NCBI GenBank assembly: GCA_028749115.1
Contig: JAQURD010000001.1
Location: 152,218-216,217, forward strand
DNA from: Acidobacteriota bacterium
Lineage (GTDB): Bacteria; Acidobacteriota; Aminicenantia; Aminicenantales; Saccharicenantaceae
Direction of reading: 5' to 3'
Length of the DNA: 64,000 nt
Made by a program: the position numbers and the translations under genes. Shown here in pieces: positions 18,055 to 29,039 of the stretch (positions are counted from its first letter, which is position 1; every line of letters starts with the position of its first letter). The notes beneath the pieces are model-generated. The model saw only the letters and a program-made list of their open reading frames with translations. It ran no database searches and was not told the origin of the DNA.

Positions 18055-21000
18055 CTAAAAGCCTGGGGAAATAGTAAATTGTAAATGCCAGCCTTTAATT
18101 GGGCGATCAAACGGATAGACATAATCAAGCCCCAGGACAACCACGCCGAAGAAATTGGTTCTCAGTCCAAAGCCGGCGCTTGAGACTGGTTTTTTCGATC
18201 CGCCAAAAACTGATGGCTTTTCGCCATTAAACCAGGCGGTGCCGATATCATAGAAAGCCAAAAATTCCAGCGGCCAGACACCATAATAGCCTTTACCCAG
18301 GCCAAGTAAGCCAAAAACTGGAAACCTCAATTCAGCATTGGCGACTAACATCCGGCTTCCCTCCAGCCGGTTAAAATCAAAAACATCAGGGCTTTCACTA
18401 TCAAATTCATCGTACTCAAAACTGTTATAATCGTAACCCCGGACAAGGCTTTCGTAGCCAAGAAATAGAGGCCAGAGCCGACTGTCATCCGAGCCGCTCC
18501 CATAACGTCCGTAATGGAGAACCCTGAAGGCCAGAGTAAAAGGTTTGGCCGGGACAAAATAACGGCGATAATCAGCCATAACTGAAATGAAGTTTAAATT
18601 ACCAAAAGTCGGTTCAGCCTGAAGGACATAACTCTGACCAATAATTGGGCTACAGGCACCAAAAAGAGAGCTATCATAAACTACAGCAGCAGACACATAG
18701 CCATACTTTATACTGGGAGGGGCGGGCATGGATAAATCATAGTAACCAATTGGGATAAGATCTAGATCGTAAATATAACGATAAAGATGCCGGTCAAAAT
18801 CAATGTAATTAAATCCAGTACCAAATTCCAGGCGGCGGAAGGTATTAAGTGGATAAGAAGCGAAGCCCCCAATTTCATAATTTATCTGGCGATCCAGGTA
18901 TTCCTCCTGGACATAAACAGGGGTCCCCTCTAATTCATCATAGTAAGCGGCATAGGAGGCATAAACATAAGGAACCCTTTGAGCCACCAGTCCCCAGTTC
19001 AAACGTTTTTGAGAGTTCTGATAACCAACCAGAGCATAACTATCGTTGAGCTGGTTATCAGTCTGTGCCATAGTAACCAGGGTATGATAACCGAGCATAT
19101 CACTCCAGATAGCAGCTATTCCACCGCCGGCATAGGTGCCATAACGGTCAACGCCCACGGCTACCGTCGGCTGGGTAACATAATCTAAACTCAACTTTGG
19201 CTTGTAACTGGTGACCGGAAAATCGGTTTCTTTGGGCAAACCATAGAGAGAATTGCGCAGTAATCCTAAAAGAGCCCCTTCCATCTGCTGACGGGGCGGA
19301 AGAAGCCCAACTGGTCTTTGATCAAGTTGAGCCAGTGTAGCCTGGCCGGCCAGATTATCTGGCTGTTCTATCAGATAAACCGAATAGCAGCCGTTTTCAT
19401 AGACTGACATGGCCAGTAAGCCTGACCCGATTGAATAAGAGAAAGCCGGGCTGAGTTGAGTTATTCCGCCAATTCCAGAAAACAAGTTGGTAATCTGATA
19501 AATTTTCCCGTCAGCTAGATCCAGCCGGAAAAGGTCAGTCTTACCCTGGTAATCAGACAGGAAAAAGAGGCTTTGACCATCAGCGGACCACTGGGGGTTA
19601 ATATTCTTACCTGAGGGAAAAGCCAGAGCTCTGGTTACTTCACCCGTGGCGACGTCCAGCAGGGCCAGCTCATAATGCCCATAATCCAGCCAGTTTATAT
19701 TGGCACTGAATCTTTCACTGACAAAAGCTATTTTTGTCCCATCCGGCGACCAGACAGGATGAATATCTCCAAAGCTATCATTGGTCATTTTTTTTAGCGT
19801 ATTATCCTCAAGATTATAGATATAGATATCACTGACCCCACCCGCTAAGGCCGAAAAGGTAATTTCTCTGCTGTCAGGAGACCAGGAAGGATTAAGGATT
19901 TCACCCAGTTCAGGAAAAGGAATTTCTTTTTCAACTTTACCTTTGTTTATATTGATAATAGTCAGGTAGGGCTTGCCATGAGAAATTGTCCCCAGGACAA
20001 AGCGCTGGCTGCCGGCTTCCCAGGATCCAGCCGACCGGATAAATTGAATGCTTTCAAAATGAGGATCAATAGCTGTGGAGGTTAATTTTTTAATAACCTT
20101 GCCTGTCCTGGCCTCAGCCAGGTAAAGATCGACAGAAAAAAGATCACGGGAAGAAAGAAATATCATATAACGACCATCGGGGCTAAGAACCGGGGAAACG
20201 TTATAAACATTTTCATCTGTGCCTTTTAATAACAGCTTTCCGTACTTATCAGGAGTTTGAGTCAATGGCACCAGGGGTCCATAGGCAGCCTCATTGGCTT
20301 TATGCCAGTCTTCAGATATTTTTTTAAGAGGCTCTCCCAGAACTCCCTGGAGAACAGACTCGTAATCATTAGTTCTGGACAACATCCGGAAGATCTTACC
20401 AATCATCTCATCTCCGTACCGGCCGCCAATATAGGCCCAGATCGCCTGGCCATACCGGTAAGGGAAATATTTATAATAGTCTTCAAGCTTTTTAATCTGA
20501 GGGAGAAACTTTCTTTTCCAGGCATCTCTCATCCACATGGAAGTTTCTGGGTCATAGGGACCAATAGACAGATATTCAGCCAGGCCTTCGATCAGGAATA
20601 ATGGGATTCTTAAGTCAGCACCGGTATATCTGGCATCATCCGAATGCCCCTGCCCGGCCAGATCATATTGAAAGGCGTGAACCAACTCGTGACCAATAAC
20701 GTGATCGGTTTCAGCCATGGTAACACCGTAAGGCACGACAATTCTTCTTTTAAAGGACTCGGTTACACCACCAGTTCCTTCACCCATAAGTTCAGGAATA
20801 ACCGTTGTCTGCTGGAACTCGGGGCTACTGGCATAAATGATAAGAGGCTGACGTCCTTTTAGCTCGTGATTAAAAATCCGGCTGAAACGGGCATACCAGC
20901 GCTCCGCCATCTCAGCCGCCTGCTTTACAACCTCAGTGTCCTGTTGATAAAAATACACATCAAAATGTTTGGTTTTCATAATCTTGAAATCAAATTTCTT

Positions 21001-21117
21001 GTATTGAACCTTGTTCCGACCGAAATATTGAGCCTGCAGCCCGGAAGCCATGGCCAAAAGGAGAAAGCCAGAAATAAGCCAGCAGCTAATAGTTTTTTTA
21101 TTTTTAGTAAGAAACAT
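18055..21117 (-). CDS. Exported multidomain protein: MA-clan-like metallopeptidase region + PD40/TolB-like propeller + Omp85-like barrel
   Basis: VIGHELVHAFQYDLAGQG (HExxH); repeats such as LNPSWSPDSREITFSA / IHPVWSPDGTKIAFVS / INPQWSADGQSLFFLS; C-terminal Tyr-rich strands and LVRGYDYNSFE...LVANAELRFPVFG. Confidence 0.82.
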   Translation of the reverse strand: MFLTKNKKTISCWLISGFLLLAMASGLQAQYFGRNKVQYKKFDFKIMKTKHFDVYFYQQDTEVVKQAAEMAERWYARFSRIFNHELKGRQPLIIYASSPEFQQTTVIPELMGEGTGGVTESFKRRIVVPYGVTMAETDHVIGHELVHAFQYDLAGQGHSDDARYTGADLRIPLFLIEGLAEYLSIGPYDPETSMWMRDAWKRKFLPQIKKLEDYYKYFPYRYGQAIWAYIGGRYGDEMIGKIFRMLSRTNDYESVLQGVLGEPLKKISEDWHKANEAAYGPLVPLTQTPDKYGKLLLKGTDENVYNVSPVLSPDGRYMIFLSSRDLFSVDLYLAEARTGKVIKKLTSTAIDPHFESIQFIRSAGSWEAGSQRFVLGTISHGKPYLTIININKGKVEKEIPFPELGEILNPSWSPDSREITFSALAGGVSDIYIYNLEDNTLKKMTNDSFGDIHPVWSPDGTKIAFVSERFSANINWLDYGHYELALLDVATGEVTRALAFPSGKNINPQWSADGQSLFFLSDYQGKTDLFRLDLADGKIYQITNLFSGIGGITQLSPAFSYSIGSGLLAMSVYENGCYSVYLIEQPDNLAGQATLAQLDQRPVGLLPPRQQMEGALLGLLRNSLYGLPKETDFPVTSYKPKLSLDYVTQPTVAVGVDRYGTYAGGGIAAIWSDMLGYHTLVTMAQTDNQLNDSYALVGYQNSQKRLNWGLVAQRVPYVYASYAAYYDELEGTPVYVQEEYLDRQINYEIGGFASYPLNTFRRLEFGTGFNYIDFDRHLYRYIYDLDLIPIGYYDLSMPAPPSIKYGYVSAAVVYDSSLFGACSPIIGQSYVLQAEPTFGNLNFISVMADYRRYFVPAKPFTLAFRVLHYGRYGSGSDDSRLWPLFLGYESLVRGYDYNSFEYDEFDSESPDVFDFNRLEGSRMLVANAELRFPVFGLLGLGKGYYGVWPLEFLAFYDIGTAWFNGEKPSVFGGSKKPVSSAGFGLRTNFFGVVVLGLDYVYPFDRPIKGWHLQFTISPGF

Positions 21118-21248: not shown

Positions 21249-22019
21249 GTGATAATCATAAATATAGTGAAGATAACTGAGAAAACTGCTAGAAGCATAC
21301 TTAATAAGTCTAAAGTCTTCGATTATTGCCTTAATCCTTATACCGGTTGCAGCCACAGATGCCGTTATTGCTATGCCTCCCTATTCATGCCCCGTTATTC
21401 TGGGCACACTGAGCCGTGGGGTCAGTTTCTCGAAGCTAAAATCAATGCGCCTGAGCTGCTCAGCCGTCAATTAGTCCGGGCCAGGCGCGGGACAATCTGG
21501 ATAGCTTCAGTCTGTGATGCTTATCAGCCGGCTGAAATTAAGTATCAGTTGACCAGAAAATGCCTGGCCGAAATCAGGCACTCGGATTTCCCGGTTTTTA
21601 TTCAGACGAAATCTGATTTAGTTCTGCGCGATCTCGATCTCCTCCAGGAGATAAAAGAAGTAGAACTCGGTTTTTCCATTGCGACTGATAGTGACAAGAT
21701 AGCGAGCCTTTTCGAACCTGGCGCCCCTTCAATCTCCAGGCGAATCAGAGCCCTGGAAAAAATAAGAAAACTGAACTTTAAAACCTTTGCCTTCATCGGC
21801 CCGATTTTGCCTCAAAATCCTGCAAGATTAATGTCTTTAGTCGGCGGTCTGGTGGATAAAATTTTTATTGATCGTCTGAATTACCGGAGCTATTTTATCA
21901 ACTTCTACCGTCAGCAGCAGCTCCAGGCTCATGTTTCTGATAGCTATTTTGAGCAGGTCAAAAAAGAGCTACAAGCTGCTGCCGAAGGTTATCATCTAAA
22001 GGTGGAAGCAATTTTTTGA
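21249..22019 (+). CDS. Radical SAM protein (SPL/Rv2578c-like)
   Basis: LNPYTGCSHRCRYCYASLFMPRYSGHTEPWGQF: CxxxCxxC cluster motif. Confidence 0.85.
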   Translation: MIIINIVKITEKTARSILNKSKVFDYCLNPYTGCSHRCRYCYASLFMPRYSGHTEPWGQFLEAKINAPELLSRQLVRARRGTIWIASVCDAYQPAEIKYQLTRKCLAEIRHSDFPVFIQTKSDLVLRDLDLLQEIKEVELGFSIATDSDKIASLFEPGAPSISRRIRALEKIRKLNFKTFAFIGPILPQNPARLMSLVGGLVDKIFIDRLNYRSYFINFYRQQQLQAHVSDSYFEQVKKELQAAAEGYHLKVEAIF

Positions 22020-22028
22020 AACTTTTAT

Positions 22029-23369
22029 TTGCCTTATTCAAAACAAATAAGTAAGATTTTTTTAATGATCATTCAAACTTTAATTATCTCAGCAGTCATA
22101 GTCAGTGCTTATTCGGTAGCCAAATGGCAAAGGCTTTCAGTGGAATTGAGCCTGTTTATCTCGGCTTTAGCTGGTGCCGCGGCCGGAGCACTGTTTAAAA
22201 CTCCTGCACTGGCAGAAATTCCACGGCATCTAGTTGAAGGCAGTTTCACCTACCTTGATGTTATTCTCGTCTTTTTCTCAGCTACTTTATTCATTACTAT
22301 TATCCAAGAATCAGGCGGTATAAACTATGCGGTGCGGAAAGCAGTAGCCAGCTTTGCCCGTTTTAGGTTTCTGGCTCTTTTCCTCCTGATGATAATTGTG
22401 CTAGTTCCTGGAGCCCTGACCGGTGCTGGCAGCGTTTCTCTCCTGGTAGTTGGAGCTCCGGTGGCCTTAGCCCTGAAGGGGCTGGGCGTAGATGAAAAGA
22501 AAATTCCAGCTATACTCTTTATTCTGGCCGGATTGGCCGCGGCTGCTCCACCGGTTAATATCTGGGCTATGATTTTGTGCGCTGGAACGGCTATACCTTA
22601 TGTCGGCTTTGAATTACCTCTGGCTATTCCTGTCCTTATTCTGGGGACCATAACCATTCTTATTCTTGGCCGGAGAAAGGGACAATCAGCCGAATTAAAT
22701 GAATTTCTGGAAAAAATAGAAATTATTCCGGGTATGAACTGGCTGAGATTGCTCTTGCCTTTTGCTGTCTTTTTTGGTCTGGTCATAGCTTATCGCCTAT
22801 GGCCGTTTTCTTTCCCCATCCTTGGCCTGCCCTTAGAATTTATCATAGCTTCACTGGCTGCTTATCTTTTGAGTCCGGTGAAAATCAATCTAATCAAGGT
22901 GGCCAGTAGTACAGTTGACAAGTTACTGCCTCTTCTCTCCATCATGGTTATAGTCGGGATGCTACAGCAGGTTATGGCAGCTACTGGAGTCAAAGGATTG
23001 ATTTCCTATTCTGTCTTGATTATTCCTCTCGGGCTTTTATTCTTTCTCCTGACGGTCATCATTCCATTTTCCGAAGGTATTCTCACCTATGGCGGGGCAG
23101 CTATTATTGGTATTCCGCTTGTTTGGTATCTCAATTCACTTGGTTATCATCCGACAATAGTTATCGCTGGACTCAGTTTGCTTTGGCCTCTGGGTGATGG
23201 CCTGCCGCCAACGGCACTTATTGGCCGGTTGAGCCTGATGGTTTCAGGCTATAAGGGTTCTTACTGGTCATCAATTAAAAAAGCCTGGCTACCATGGCTG
23301 ATTATAACGGCGACAGGCATCCTGATGATCGTCTTTAGCTCGAAATTAAGCTTTCTGGTCATTAGTTAG
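22029..23369 (+). CDS. Multi-TM permease of the ion-transporter (GntP/CitMHS/DctM-like) superfamily
   Basis: About 10-12 hydrophobic segments; VPGALTGAGSVSLLVVGAPVALALKGLGVDEKKIPAILFILAGLAAAAPPVNIWAM and GDGLPPTALIGRLSLMV re-entrant-like motifs. Start TTG 22029 or ATG 22065. Confidence 0.75.
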   Translation: MPYSKQISKIFLMIIQTLIISAVIVSAYSVAKWQRLSVELSLFISALAGAAAGALFKTPALAEIPRHLVEGSFTYLDVILVFFSATLFITIIQESGGINYAVRKAVASFARFRFLALFLLMIIVLVPGALTGAGSVSLLVVGAPVALALKGLGVDEKKIPAILFILAGLAAAAPPVNIWAMILCAGTAIPYVGFELPLAIPVLILGTITILILGRRKGQSAELNEFLEKIEIIPGMNWLRLLLPFAVFFGLVIAYRLWPFSFPILGLPLEFIIASLAAYLLSPVKINLIKVASSTVDKLLPLLSIMVIVGMLQQVMAATGVKGLISYSVLIIPLGLLFFLLTVIIPFSEGILTYGGAAIIGIPLVWYLNSLGYHPTIVIAGLSLLWPLGDGLPPTALIGRLSLMVSGYKGSYWSSIKKAWLPWLIITATGILMIVFSSKLSFLVIS

Positions 23370-23427
23370 GTGAAGTGGAGAGATGAACTGATGAAAAATA
23401 TTTTGACTAGGTAAAATAGGTAGAGCA

Positions 23428-23589
23428 ATGATAGCCAAAATTATCATGATTTTTTATTATCTACTATGTCTGTTTTTTGTAGCTATAACCTTCAAAAACC
23501 TGTTAGAAGAAAGGACAAGCAAAGATAGAATTGTGCTTTATCTCATAACTTTGGTCCCGTTTGTAGCTCGCCTGTTGCGTTTTAAATGA
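23428..23589 (+). CDS. Small two-TM hypothetical protein (53 aa), absent from the supplied ORF track
   Basis: ATG..TGA encodes MIAKIIMIFYYLLCLFFVAITFKNLLEERTSKDRIVLYLITLVPFVARLLRFK; co-directional and intercalated in the 22-29 kb locus. Confidence 0.6.
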   Translation: MIAKIIMIFYYLLCLFFVAITFKNLLEERTSKDRIVLYLITLVPFVARLLRFK

Positions 23590-23599
23590 AAGGTAAATC

Positions 23600-24766
23600 A
23601 TGAAAACAGCTTTATTGAGATTTAAAATCATAGCTATAGGAGTTTTTATCATTTTGATTATAACGGGCGGGTTACCCCTCTGGCAACACCGCCATTTTCG
23701 AGTTGACGTTGTCCTGGGGCCCGGAGTTAGTGAAGTCAAAAAGCTCAGCCAGTACTTCCCGGCCATAAGCGGAAGTCAGGCTGATACTGATGTTTTTATT
23801 CTTCGGGGAAAGGAACCAGGCGGCCAGGCATTAATTATGAGCAATACACATGCCAATGAACCAGAAGGTATGTTATCGGTACTGGTCATGATTGAAAATG
23901 CCATCGTCGAAAAAGGCACGCTCTACCTCATTCCCTTTTTCAATTACAGCGGCGGGCTAAACACGCGTCCGGGAGAAGGCTATCCGCTTTATTTTTCGGT
24001 CGCCACTCTCTGGGGTAAAAGAACTTTCCGGATGGGTAACAGAGATGCCTCTCCCCTTGATCAATGGCCTGACCCGGACGTTTATATTCATTACCCGGAA
24101 AGACAGATGCTTTCTTATCTGGATATCAGAAATACCAACCGTACCTGGCCGGGCCGGAAAAATGGCCTGCCCATGGAACAGGTAACTTTTGCGGTCATGG
24201 AACTTCTCAAGCAAAACAAAGTTGATCTGGCTATCGACCTTCACGGAGCAGAAACCATGTATGCTGTTACCAATTGCATTGTCGCCCCGGAAAAATCTAC
24301 CCGCCTGGCCATTATGGCCTCGCTGACCGTCAAATCAAAAGAAGGTTTTGAAAATCATGTTGAACCATCGCCAGAAGGCTATCGTGGATTATCTCACCGG
24401 GAAATAGGCGATGCTTCTGATACTCTACCTTTTCTTCTGGAGGCTCCTCTTCCTTTTCTTGATCAACCAACTGGCCCAAAAACAGAGGAATTATATCTTA
24501 CCGGCCAGGATGAATTTCTCTTAAGCCTGGCTAAAAAGAAAAAGCTTTTTGTTCCCTACGACCAGTCTGGCTGGCCGCTGGAAAAGCGGGTTGGTCAGCA
24601 TCTATCAGTCAGCCTGGAGATTATGAAACAGTACTCAAAAAAATTGCCTGAACGGGCTATTGTCATTAATAATGTCCCCCGTTATGCTGATGTCCTTAAA
24701 AATGGCCTTGGTTATTATTTTCATAATCCGGCCGAGGCAGATCCACACTGCCGGATGGTTGAATGA
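23600..24766 (+). CDS. Exported or membrane-anchored AstE/AspA-like zinc hydrolase (succinylglutamate desuccinylase / aspartoacylase / M14-like)
   Basis: SNTHANEPEGMLSVLV (HxxE zinc ligands), later IDLHGAE (third ligand); N-terminal hydrophobic anchor. Confidence 0.72.
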   Translation: MKTALLRFKIIAIGVFIILIITGGLPLWQHRHFRVDVVLGPGVSEVKKLSQYFPAISGSQADTDVFILRGKEPGGQALIMSNTHANEPEGMLSVLVMIENAIVEKGTLYLIPFFNYSGGLNTRPGEGYPLYFSVATLWGKRTFRMGNRDASPLDQWPDPDVYIHYPERQMLSYLDIRNTNRTWPGRKNGLPMEQVTFAVMELLKQNKVDLAIDLHGAETMYAVTNCIVAPEKSTRLAIMASLTVKSKEGFENHVEPSPEGYRGLSHREIGDASDTLPFLLEAPLPFLDQPTGPKTEELYLTGQDEFLLSLAKKKKLFVPYDQSGWPLEKRVGQHLSVSLEIMKQYSKKLPERAIVINNVPRYADVLKNGLGYYFHNPAEADPHCRMVE

Positions 24767-24884
24767 ACAGGTAAAGCCTGGCCAAAAACTTAATAGATTG
24801 TTCAGTGGCCAGGTAAGGAAATTAGCGGAGAAGATTAAATTTAAAACAATGGGTTTTTGGCCCGACTAAAGGAGCATAACCTTC

Positions 24885-26588
24885 ATGAAAAAAATAACAA
24901 TCCTGAGCGGATTAACCGTCCTGCTATTTCTATTGCTACTGATTTTTTCTGCCCGCCAGCCAGGTGCAGGCGATTTATCAAATGGTTATCCTGGTTCTGA
25001 TGATAAATGCACGGTTATCATGGTTGGCAAAAGAGCGTCAGTCGATGGCTCGACTATAACCACCCACACAGCCGATTGCGGTCTGTGTGATTGGACCTGG
25101 CGTTATGTGCCAGCGGCAGATCACAAACCGGGAGAAACCAGAAGAATATTCAGGATTTCTCAGACTAAGAGCTGGCCGCCAGATCAAGGTCGGAAATGGG
25201 ACTTAATAAAGAATGATTTTACCGGAGTGGAAATCCCTGAAATCTCTCATACTTTTGGCTATATGCACGGAGTCTTTGGCTACATGAATGATCAGCAACT
25301 GGCCATGGGCGAATCAACCATAGGTAACCGCCCAAAAATGTCCAACCCAACAGCAACGCCTGCCATGAACTTGACCATGCTAACTATGCTGGCTATGGAA
25401 AGATGCCGGACAGCCAGAGAGGCCATAAAATTGATGGGCTCGCTGGCTGAGAAATATGGCTATGGAGGCGAGGATGAAGGCGAAATGCTGGCCGTAGCTG
25501 ATCCGGAGGAGGTTTGGGTTTTTGAAATCATGCCAGTCGGCCCTCTCTGGAATCAAAAATCCGGTAAGCCTGGTGCCATCTGGTGCGCTCAGAGGGTGCC
25601 GGACGACGAGGTCAGCATTTGTCCGAACGAGTCAAGAATTGGCGAGATAGATCTAGATCAACCTGATTTTTTTATGGCTTCTCCTAATGTGATTTCGTAT
25701 GCGGTGGATAATGGCCTCTGGCACCCAGAAAGTGGTCAGCCATTTAGCTGGAAAAAAACTTATTCGCCGGCGGCAGGCAGTGCTGCCTCCAACTGGAGAC
25801 GGGCCAGAATGTGGCGTTTCTTTGATCTCATTTCTCCTTCCTTAAAATTCACTCCTTCCCTCCCCAATATGGACTTTCCATTTTCTGTTAAGCCCGATCG
25901 TAAACTCTCTGTTAAAGATGTTATGAATCTCTGCCGGGACAAGGGTTATGGAAGCTTTTTTGATCCAACCCGCGGCATAAGAGGGGGACCATACAATAAT
26001 CCTAATTATGAGACTTCAGCCCGTTTAATCAGTGTCAAGCAAGCCGAATATACGACTGTCACTCAGTGCAGAAACTGGCTACCTGCCCCTGTTGGGGGCA
26101 TTGTCTGGTTGGCCTGGGGGGCCCAGGACACATCTTGCTTTATGCCGTTTTATGCCGGCCTGAAGGCTTTGCCTGGTTCTTTCAGTCTGGGTGATCATTT
26201 TGTTCTGAACCGGGAGGCTGCCCGCTGGGCTTTTGATTATGTTGATTTTCATACTCAGGTTTGTTATTCACCTGCTCTGAAAGAAGTCAAGAAGGCCCAG
26301 AGTACCTGGGAGGATGGAGCCTTAAAGCAAATTTCTGAGATAGACCAGAAAGCCCTTGAAATCTATAAAAAGAATCCTGGCCAAGCAGCTGATTTTTTGA
26401 CCGCTTTTTGTCTGAACAATGCTGAGCAGGTAGTCAAGGCCTGGTGGCAATTAGGAGATGAACTGCTGGTTAAGTTTGATCACTTTGGTTATTATGATTT
26501 AGAGCGTAGAACAGTCGAAAGAAAACCGATGGAATTTCCGGCTAGATGGAAAAAGGCAGTTAGAATTATTGATGCTCTATTGGACTAA
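24885..26588 (+). CDS. Exported C69-family dipeptidase
   Basis: Signal peptide then CTVIMVGKRASVDGSTITTHTADC (Ntn-type Cys-Thr nucleophile context), SRIGEIDLDQPDFFMASPN. Confidence 0.85.
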   Translation: MKKITILSGLTVLLFLLLLIFSARQPGAGDLSNGYPGSDDKCTVIMVGKRASVDGSTITTHTADCGLCDWTWRYVPAADHKPGETRRIFRISQTKSWPPDQGRKWDLIKNDFTGVEIPEISHTFGYMHGVFGYMNDQQLAMGESTIGNRPKMSNPTATPAMNLTMLTMLAMERCRTAREAIKLMGSLAEKYGYGGEDEGEMLAVADPEEVWVFEIMPVGPLWNQKSGKPGAIWCAQRVPDDEVSICPNESRIGEIDLDQPDFFMASPNVISYAVDNGLWHPESGQPFSWKKTYSPAAGSAASNWRRARMWRFFDLISPSLKFTPSLPNMDFPFSVKPDRKLSVKDVMNLCRDKGYGSFFDPTRGIRGGPYNNPNYETSARLISVKQAEYTTVTQCRNWLPAPVGGIVWLAWGAQDTSCFMPFYAGLKALPGSFSLGDHFVLNREAARWAFDYVDFHTQVCYSPALKEVKKAQSTWEDGALKQISEIDQKALEIYKKNPGQAADFLTAFCLNNAEQVVKAWWQLGDELLVKFDHFGYYDLERRTVERKPMEFPARWKKAVRIIDALLD

Positions 26589-26628
26589 ATGAGAGAGAAA
26601 GTTTATAAAGAAGATGGAGGTTAAAAAG

Positions 26629-28368
26629 ATGAAGATAAAAACAAAAAAAGCCAGGAGGTTTTATTTTCTGTTTCTGCCCGTTCTTTTAATTAGCCTGGCG
26701 GCGCTGCTGGCGGCTGTGCGGGCAGAAAAAAACGTAGCAGATTTAGGACTGGGGCAACCAGCCGACAACTGTACTTCCATTCTCGTTGGCAAGCTGGCCT
26801 CAACCGACGGGTCAACCATCACGACTCATACCTGTGATTGCGGCCAATGTGACTGGACGTGGAGGCATGTGCCAGCGGCGGATCACCAACCAGGGGAGAA
26901 ACGGAAAATTTATCATATATCTCAGTTTAAAGCCTGGTCGCCAGCAGAAGGCCTAAAATGGGACCTCTATAAAAATGATTTCACCGGCCTGGAAATTCCT
27001 CAAGTGGCTCACACCTATGCCTATCATCACGGGATGTTTGGCTACATCAATGAAAATCAGGTAGCCCTTGGTGAATCAACGATTGGTGTAGTTCGCAAAC
27101 TGGAAAACGAGACCCCAACTCCTGCTTTTGACCTCACCATGCTAACTATAATCGCCATGGAAAGAGCCACAACTGCTCGTGAAGCAATTAAAATTATGGG
27201 AGAGCTGTCCGAAAAATACGGCTATGGTTATTATGATTCGGGCGAAATGCTGGCCGTAGCCGATCCGAATGAAGTCTGGATATTTGAAATCCTGCCTGTT
27301 GGGCCTCTCTGGTCCCCCAGGACCGGCAAGCCAGGAGCTGTCTGGTGTGCTCAGAGGATCCCGGATGATGAGGTTAGTATCTGCCCGAATGAATCACGAA
27401 TCGGCGAGATCGATCTTAACCGTCCCGATTATTTTATGGCTTCTCCCAACGCAATTTCCTGTGCTGTCGAAAATGGACTATACGATCCAAAGAGCGGCCG
27501 GCCTTTTAGCTGGAAAAGAGCTTATTCTCCGATTAATGAGAGTGCCCAGGGTTCGCAGGGCAGATACCAGCGCCTGTGGCGGTTTTTCGACCTGGTGGCT
27601 CCTTCTCTCCAGCTTTCTCCATCTACACCAAATATGGATTTGCCTTTCTCGGTTAAACCAGACAGGAAATTGTCGGTAGAAGATATTATCAATTTTACCC
27701 GCGATAAAAGTTATGGCACCCCTTATGATCCAACAACAGGAATTCGGGGCGGGCCATTTAAAAACCCCAATTACTACCGCCAGACCAGGAATATCTGCGA
27801 CAGCCGGGCTGAATACACGACTGTTACCCAGAGCCGGGGCTGGCTTCCCAATCCGGTTGGCGGCCTGGTCTGGATCTCTTTTGGTGCCCAGGATACAGCC
27901 TGTTACATGCCTTTTTATGCCGGTGTCAGCGAGTTGCCCAGATCTTTTTCTATTGGTGATCACTGGCAAATAAACCGGGATTCAGCCCGCTGGGCATTTG
28001 ATTATGTAGATTATCATACTCAGGTTGTTTACTCAGAGGCCATAAAAGATGTTGCTGCTGCCCAGCTAATGTATGAAAAGACGGTTATCGACCAGTTGCC
28101 CGATCTTGACCGCCGGGCAGCCGAGCTTTATAAAAAGAGTCCGAAAGAAGCTATTAAGTTTATGACCGGTTTCTGCCTTAATAATGCTCAAACTGTGGTC
28201 AAAGCCTGGTGGACTCTGGGTGATCAATTGCTGATAAAATATAATCATCTTTATCATTATGATATTGAAAAGAGAACCTATGAACGGCGTTTTCCATCAT
28301 TCCCTGATATCTGGCAGAAGGCGGTCAAAGCTATAGATATCATGCTTGAACCAGAGGGGAAAAAATAA
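26629..28368 (+). CDS. Exported C69-family dipeptidase, tandem paralog
   Basis: CTSILVGKLASTDGSTITTHTCDC; closely aligns by eye with the preceding ORF. GGAGG precedes the ATG at 26629 (longest ORF starts 26614). Confidence 0.85.
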   Translation: MKIKTKKARRFYFLFLPVLLISLAALLAAVRAEKNVADLGLGQPADNCTSILVGKLASTDGSTITTHTCDCGQCDWTWRHVPAADHQPGEKRKIYHISQFKAWSPAEGLKWDLYKNDFTGLEIPQVAHTYAYHHGMFGYINENQVALGESTIGVVRKLENETPTPAFDLTMLTIIAMERATTAREAIKIMGELSEKYGYGYYDSGEMLAVADPNEVWIFEILPVGPLWSPRTGKPGAVWCAQRIPDDEVSICPNESRIGEIDLNRPDYFMASPNAISCAVENGLYDPKSGRPFSWKRAYSPINESAQGSQGRYQRLWRFFDLVAPSLQLSPSTPNMDLPFSVKPDRKLSVEDIINFTRDKSYGTPYDPTTGIRGGPFKNPNYYRQTRNICDSRAEYTTVTQSRGWLPNPVGGLVWISFGAQDTACYMPFYAGVSELPRSFSIGDHWQINRDSARWAFDYVDYHTQVVYSEAIKDVAAAQLMYEKTVIDQLPDLDRRAAELYKKSPKEAIKFMTGFCLNNAQTVVKAWWTLGDQLLIKYNHLYHYDIEKRTYERRFPSFPDIWQKAVKAIDIMLEPEGKK

Positions 28369-28382
28369 AGGAGGACAGGGAA

Positions 28383-29039
28383 ATGAAAACTAAAATTTTG
28401 GTCGTTGGGCTGGTGCTTTTAGGAGTTCTGTTATTTATCAACCCGGCCATTAACAGCCAGACCATTCTTAAGGCTAAATTGCCAATTCTGACTACTTCTG
28501 CCGGGCAGAGCTCAGATGTCACCACCGTCAATATTATCCTGGAAGAGGCGGGCCTTGGCTATGATTATTGTGATGTGCCAACAGTGGAAATACTGGCCTC
28601 AGGCACTGGCCTTGGCAACCGGCAATCTGGTTCTGGTTTCCATGCCGAAGTTTATACTGATTTGTCTAAGTTTCCTAAGGGTACTCCTTACAACACAGTT
28701 ATTTTTGCTATTGGCGCCAGTTTAAAAGGCATGGGCGCTTCCGGTCTGACAGTGGAGACAGAAGAAGCCCGCCTGAAATCACTGCTTAATTACTGCCGGG
28801 CACAAAAAATATTTACTATAGGTGTTCATCTTGGCGGAAGCTCGAAAAGAGGAGCGGCCGGCAGTGACAATGAGCGTATGATTGATGCTGTTGCTCCTTA
28901 TGTAAATTACTTGATTGTTACTGGCGAAGGAAATAAAGATGGGCGCTTTACAGAAATAGCCAGGAAGAACAATATTCCTCTTACCCAGGTTACTGATGCT
29001 CTAGATCTGGTAGAAATTTTGAAGCAAGTGTTCCAGTAA
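28383..29039 (+). CDS. Exported DUF6305-like protein
   Basis: Signal peptide; PILTTSAGQSSDVTTVNIILEEAGLGYDYCDVPTVE; alpha/beta pattern; starts 14 nt after the previous stop. Confidence 0.65.
   Translation: MKTKILVVGLVLLGVLLFINPAINSQTILKAKLPILTTSAGQSSDVTTVNIILEEAGLGYDYCDVPTVEILASGTGLGNRQSGSGFHAEVYTDLSKFPKGTPYNTVIFAIGASLKGMGASGLTVETEEARLKSLLNYCRAQKIFTIGVHLGGSSKRGAAGSDNERMIDAVAPYVNYLIVTGEGNKDGRFTEIARKNNIPLTQVTDALDLVEILKQVFQ

Follow-up and report, generated by a model that had tools for sequence, protein, structure and literature searches.

The window analysed here is a 64,000-nucleotide stretch of DNA from an Acidobacteriota bacterium whose kin are Candidatus Saccharicenans / Aminicenantes. At positions 22029-29039 it carries six co-directional ORFs on the + strand, and the question raised by this locus is what a permease, a very small membrane protein, three hydrolases and an exported DUF6305 protein do together. 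A first-pass annotation had proposed that the locus trims an extracytoplasmic acyl-peptide and imports a released product. The locus and the outline of that proposal were right; however, a link to poly-gamma-glutamate (PGA) was missed and interchangeable C69 enzymes were taken as core components. The six genes are as follows.

PERM, 22065..23369, + strand: DctM-like polytopic permease of the IT superfamily, listed as an ORF from TTG 22029.
MICRO, 23428..23589, + strand: 53-residue two-helix membrane microprotein with an LRLxRxK-like motif at its end.
HYD, 23600..24766, + strand: AstE/AspA-like zinc hydrolase, membrane-anchored (PF24827).
C69-1, 24885..26588, + strand: exported C69-family dipeptidase-like Ntn hydrolase (PF03577).
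C69-2, 26614..28368, + strand: second exported C69-family protein (PF03577).
DUF6305, 28383..29039, + strand: exported alpha/beta protein of ~200 residues, putative extracytoplasmic receptor (PF19823).

The ORFs lie where they had first been placed and the gaps between them are indeed short (58, 10, 118, 25 and 14 nt, the longest thus being 118 nt). A terminator scan of the locus returned matches at chance level only. Comparison with relatives indicates that PERM probably starts at ATG 22065 and not, as first annotated, at TTG 22029.

The DUF6305 family was searched for in 199 genomes of the home phylum, followed by analysis of the gene neighbourhoods, and PERM and HYD were found to adjoin nearly every DUF6305 gene. 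A scan of the genome collection gave 80 named loci, 31 of which are flanked by 6.5 kb or more on each side. PERM is present in all 31 of these wide loci (as a fragment only in L078), and DUF6305, PERM and HYD lie on one strand in 30 of them; co-location of the homologues is therefore conserved in other genomes, and the check that could have refuted the first-pass grouping leaves it standing. Moreover, the PERM profile matched 14 of the 199 home-phylum genomes, exactly the 14 with a DUF6305 protein over the cut-off (this and the later co-occurrence figures for DUF6305, PERM and PgsW are raw genome counts that ignore kinship). The gene grouping is beyond chance, and PERM, MICRO, HYD and DUF6305 form a conserved four-gene core whose component set is well supported. 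S9, M28 and M14 peptidases, LarA and a radical-SAM gene upstream were also considered as core members and were ruled out, as they are not conserved.

The window PERM protein matched no Pfam or NCBIfam model, and a PDB sequence search with the PERM profile gave nothing useful. Pfam DctM was matched by 18 of 44 PERM homologues, the window protein not among them, and the Pfam matches of the homologues scatter over DctM, Na_H_antiporter, CitMHS and DcuC. The AlphaFold2 model of PERM (pLDDT 89) was more informative: its nearest PDB folds include the TRAP M subunit 7qha_B (SiaQM; TMq 0.70), IseQM and ArsB, with INDY near. The initial assignment to the IT superfamily is thus borne out, with TRAP M subunits among the best matches.

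The adjoining microprotein also lacks any Pfam or NCBIfam match. Nevertheless, a homologous two-helix ORF of about 47-54 residues was found in every one of the 80 PERM-HYD gaps examined, characterised by a conserved Tyr close to the N-terminus and by the LRLxRxK-like motif at the C-terminus, and the MICRO profile matches all 19 permease modules of a second phylum, the Bacillota. Comparison of close relatives gave dN values of 0.08-0.33 and, in the cases that allowed an estimate, dS values of 0.39-2.5. The resulting dN/dS of about 0.07-0.21 identifies MICRO as a protein-coding gene under purifying selection, and the first-pass call of a genuine membrane microprotein gene is upheld.

HYD scores 28.1 bits against AstE_AspA_cat (PF24827; cut-off 25). 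The HxxE...H zinc ligands noted at the outset are H84-x-x-E87 and H215, and these are invariant across 48 homologues, as is R181 of an Asn-Arg pair, N180-R181, in which N180 is kept in at least 90%. The HYD profile matches DoeB, Mlr6093 and 4wck chains, the closest being DoeB, an N-acetyl-diaminobutyrate deacetylase. HYD shares its zinc ligands and Asn-Arg pair with the AstE/AspA/DoeB deacylases, but differs from them in its membrane-anchored N-terminus, its divergent C-terminal half and the low overall similarity (28 bits).

The two C69 proteins match Peptidase_C69 (PF03577) with 209.6 bits (C69-1) and 207.7 bits (C69-2) and are 64% identical over 456 residues. C69-1 is similar to the solved C69 dipeptidase 5iau, with the nucleophile Cys aligned. 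The Cys-Thr nucleophile context originally described is present in both window proteins; of 42 relatives, 37 showed the Cys and the other five fell outside the search pattern. C69 enzymes are alpha-dipeptidases. The window proteins resemble PepD-like members such as 5iau in the PF03577 match and the Cys-Thr context, but they are exported, form a tandem pair and, at 182.4 and 186.2 bits, fall below the 250-bit cut-off of the NCBIfam dipeptidase equivalog NF033678.

The enzyme beside the core varies between loci: it may be C69, as in the window, an S10 peptidase or a gamma-glutamyltranspeptidase (GGT; TIGR00066, 538 bits). In a further group the core has PGA genes and an M28 peptidase as neighbours. 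On a PERM tree these associations resolve into three clades, one with GGT, one linked to PgsW and one with C69 or S10, the last containing the window copy, and the enzyme labels require 9 changes as against 23 in shuffles. In the PgsW-linked clade, a C69 gene turns up in a few members as well. The C69 pair is thus the variable part of the locus: C69, GGT and S10 enzymes are interchangeable, and the pair's initial placement in the core has to be given up, since GGT or S10 stands in its place in other PERM clades.

What the core acts upon is suggested by its neighbours. In close relatives, one core paralogue faces the genes for PgsB (254 bits against a cut-off of 222.7) and PgsW (TIGR04332, 324 bits against a cut-off of 100). 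PgsW occurs in 13 of the 199 home-phylum genomes, all 13 among the 14 that bear the core and none among the other 185. At class level (142 genomes) DUF6305 was found in 94 genomes, PgsW in 87 and both in 84 (Fisher p about 1.6e-23, ignoring phylogeny); two genomes, G292 and G293, have both in a family otherwise lacking either. The pattern recurs in the second phylum, that of G320 (locus labelled Firmicutes UBA1393), where DUF6305 is present in 45 of 399 genomes, PgsW in 24 and both in 22. Of 80 second-phylum genomes tested for PERM, exactly 22 have it, namely those in which DUF6305 and PgsW occur together; it is missing from all 23 with DUF6305 only, from the two with PgsW only and from the 33 with neither.

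Physical linkage accompanies this co-occurrence. In the second phylum the core is found within complete PGA clusters: L174, for instance, is a co-directional cluster reading GGT-DUF6305-PERM-MICRO-HYD-PgsB-PgsC-PgsW, in which PgsB (385 bits), PgsC (111) and PgsW (296) all score over the cut-off, while L170 and L173 read, again co-directionally, PgsB-PgsC-PgsW-DUF6305..DUF6305-PERM-MICRO-HYD-C69-C69. The link of the core to PGA, both physical and by co-occurrence, is well supported in two phyla. Literature searches on DUF6305, on PgsW and on their combination found no described system, and no such transporter with DUF6305 and a microprotein. The core thus shares linkage, co-occurrence and GGT partners with the known PGA systems (PgsB/CapB, PgsC/CapC, TIGR04332; GGT/CapD, PghP), but a DUF6305/microprotein transporter was not found in the literature searched on them. 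Its near restriction to bacteria with PGA genes suggests an undescribed route for processing and recovering gamma-glutamyl peptides. Since the core is tied to PgsB, PgsC and PgsW, the substrate is likelier to be gamma-glutamyl material than acyl-peptides in general, as had been supposed.

The genome from which the window comes has a single DUF6305 gene and a single PERM gene, and its copy of the core is a C69-clade paralogue that does not have PgsB and PgsC beside it. PgsB, PgsC, PgsW, a neighbouring M28 peptidase gene and C13 (a protein cluster described below) are on another contig. This PGA locus lacks both DUF6305 and PERM-MICRO-HYD, which in relatives are interleaved with the retained genes. 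Because non-adjacent genes are jointly absent, a shared function of DUF6305 and PERM-MICRO-HYD gains support, unless an assembly error is responsible.

The DUF6305 protein of the window scores 139 bits against PF19823, over the cut-off, and its AlphaFold2 model is of alpha/beta type with a pLDDT of 93. A fold search found no convincing PDB relative and no known binding-protein fold, the weak, superficial matches (TM at most 0.41) being to SGNH esterases and designed scaffolds; a PDB sequence search with the DUF6305 profile gave nothing useful, and a literature search found no paper naming the family. DUF6305 has an export signal and invariant polar residues. Open frames of 826-828 residues that looked like DUF6305 fusions run antisense to an M28 gene and are no fusions.

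Of the 18 solitary DUF6305 genes in the second phylum, 17 stand directly upstream of genes for a multi-helix histidine kinase and for a response regulator; genes of peptide ABC transporters are often close by. Extracytoplasmic solute receptors behave in this way, a single exported protein serving a transporter in one setting and a sensor kinase in another; by analogy, DUF6305 may be such a receptor, and the early suggestion of a binding factor gains support from this second lineage with its two-component sensor genes. DUF6305, histidine kinase and response regulator possibly constitute a ligand-sensing three-gene unit. The loci of this kinase-linked lineage are L168, L172, L178-L184, L189, L198-L200 and L202-L206.

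The reading we favour, to which we give an even chance, is that the core is a binding-protein-assisted secondary transporter with an anchored hydrolase, tied to PGA or gamma-glutamyl peptide metabolism. Outside the membrane, gamma-glutamyl peptides or peptides like them would be trimmed by HYD and an exported peptidase, for which paralogues have GGT or S10 in place of the C69 pair of the window. DUF6305 would then bind the product, as its export signal, invariant polar residues and alternative pairing with sensor-kinase genes suggest, and would pass it to the DctM-like PERM for what may be ion-driven uptake, with MICRO as a putative minimal small subunit of PERM. The proposed trimming chemistry is plausible because GGT cleaves terminal units off PGA and because PghP, described as related to carboxypeptidase A, is a zinc PGA hydrolase (PMC4497714). 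Counting against this reading are the failure of the DUF6305 model to match a known binding-protein fold, the position of the window copy away from PGA genes and the alpha-dipeptidase activity for which C69 enzymes are known. A bolder form of this reading can be put forward tentatively, as somewhat short of an even prospect: DUF6305 would represent a new extracytoplasmic receptor class with two alternative membrane partners, a histidine kinase or a TRAP-like permease that has a 50-residue mini-subunit, and in the latter form, together with its hydrolases, the system would be the first dedicated importer of PGA breakdown products.

The linkage with PGA synthesis genes might instead point to work on the polymer itself and not to uptake: the module would make, export, trim or anchor PGA, with GGT or C69 enzymes as transpeptidases (CapD, a GGT-family enzyme, is a transpeptidase as described for Bacillus), HYD trimming chains and PERM moving glutamate or balancing ions. 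The co-directional arrays with PgsB, PgsC and PgsW and the near-strict co-occurrence with PgsW are what this explanation would lead one to expect; however, genomes with up to nine copies of the module but a single PgsW fit diversified scavenging better, several interchangeable hydrolases fit scavenging better than a single polymer machine, and the source genome retains PgsB-PgsC-PgsW without an adjacent core. We therefore consider it fairly unlikely. Genomes of this kind are G443, G320 and G364 of the second phylum, which have 5 to 9 copies of PERM and DUF6305 and one PgsW only.

Scavenging might also be general, with exported dipeptidases and carboxylate import serving peptide and amino-acid uptake that has no specific gamma-glutamate link, and with the co-occurrence reflecting a shared lifestyle. 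Gamma specificity is not known for either C69 or S10 enzymes, the window copy lies away from PGA genes and the kinase-linked DUF6305 genes adjoin peptide ABC transporters too. Such a general role is nevertheless improbable when set against the GGT clade, the location of cores beside PGA genes in two phyla and the lack of PERM in all 23 DUF6305 genomes without PgsW. The earlier idea that HYD deacylates N-acyl-amino acids whose products are imported as carboxylates draws on the closeness of the HYD profile to DoeB and on the retained AspA-type Asn-Arg pair, but it is very doubtful, as the fold superfamily of HYD is common to carboxypeptidases and PghP (PMC4497714) and acyl-metabolism genes do not recur in the neighbourhoods examined.

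On the favoured reading, of receptor-assisted uptake of gamma-glutamyl products, the closest known counterparts are the TRAP transporters (DctP-DctQ-DctM), which the core resembles in its clustered genes for a large IT-superfamily permease, a small membrane partner and an exported partner; the modelled permease fold comes near TRAP M subunits, though near ArsB and INDY as well. The small Q subunit of TRAP systems, DctQ, has four helices, whereas MICRO has 53 residues, two hydrophobic segments and no Pfam or DctQ match. The exported partner here is DUF6305, not DctP; indeed, DctP (PF03480) had no match in the whole source genome, 91% complete, in a search confined to receptors of the DctP type. 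The core locus further differs from TRAP in having two hydrolase types built in. Judged by the sequences of its Q and P counterparts, the system would be a variant receptor-dependent secondary transporter and not a TRAP member. If the receptor role is true, a receptor-dependent secondary transporter has been built without a DctP- or DctQ-type part. The analysis thereby offers a testable function for DUF6305 and for an unannotated, universally retained membrane microprotein, and joins a transporter to PGA biology in two phyla of largely uncultured bacteria.

Several further genes were seen near these loci. In PGA-linked loci, cluster C13 encodes a protein of ~200 residues that has hydrophobic helices at its N-terminus, matches no Pfam model and is located between DUF6305 and PERM (for example L036:6844-7479 and L133:6609-7226; two copies in L081 and L141). 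In the window, the radical-SAM gene at 21249-22019 lies 45 nt upstream of the PERM start and resembles TIGR04470 below the cut-off; it has the same place in two genus relatives (L045 and L046) and is not conserved more widely. Divergent from the locus, at 18055-21117, lies a gene whose large exported product contains PD40 propeller repeats and matches peptidase MA weakly; it is retained in the same two genus relatives.
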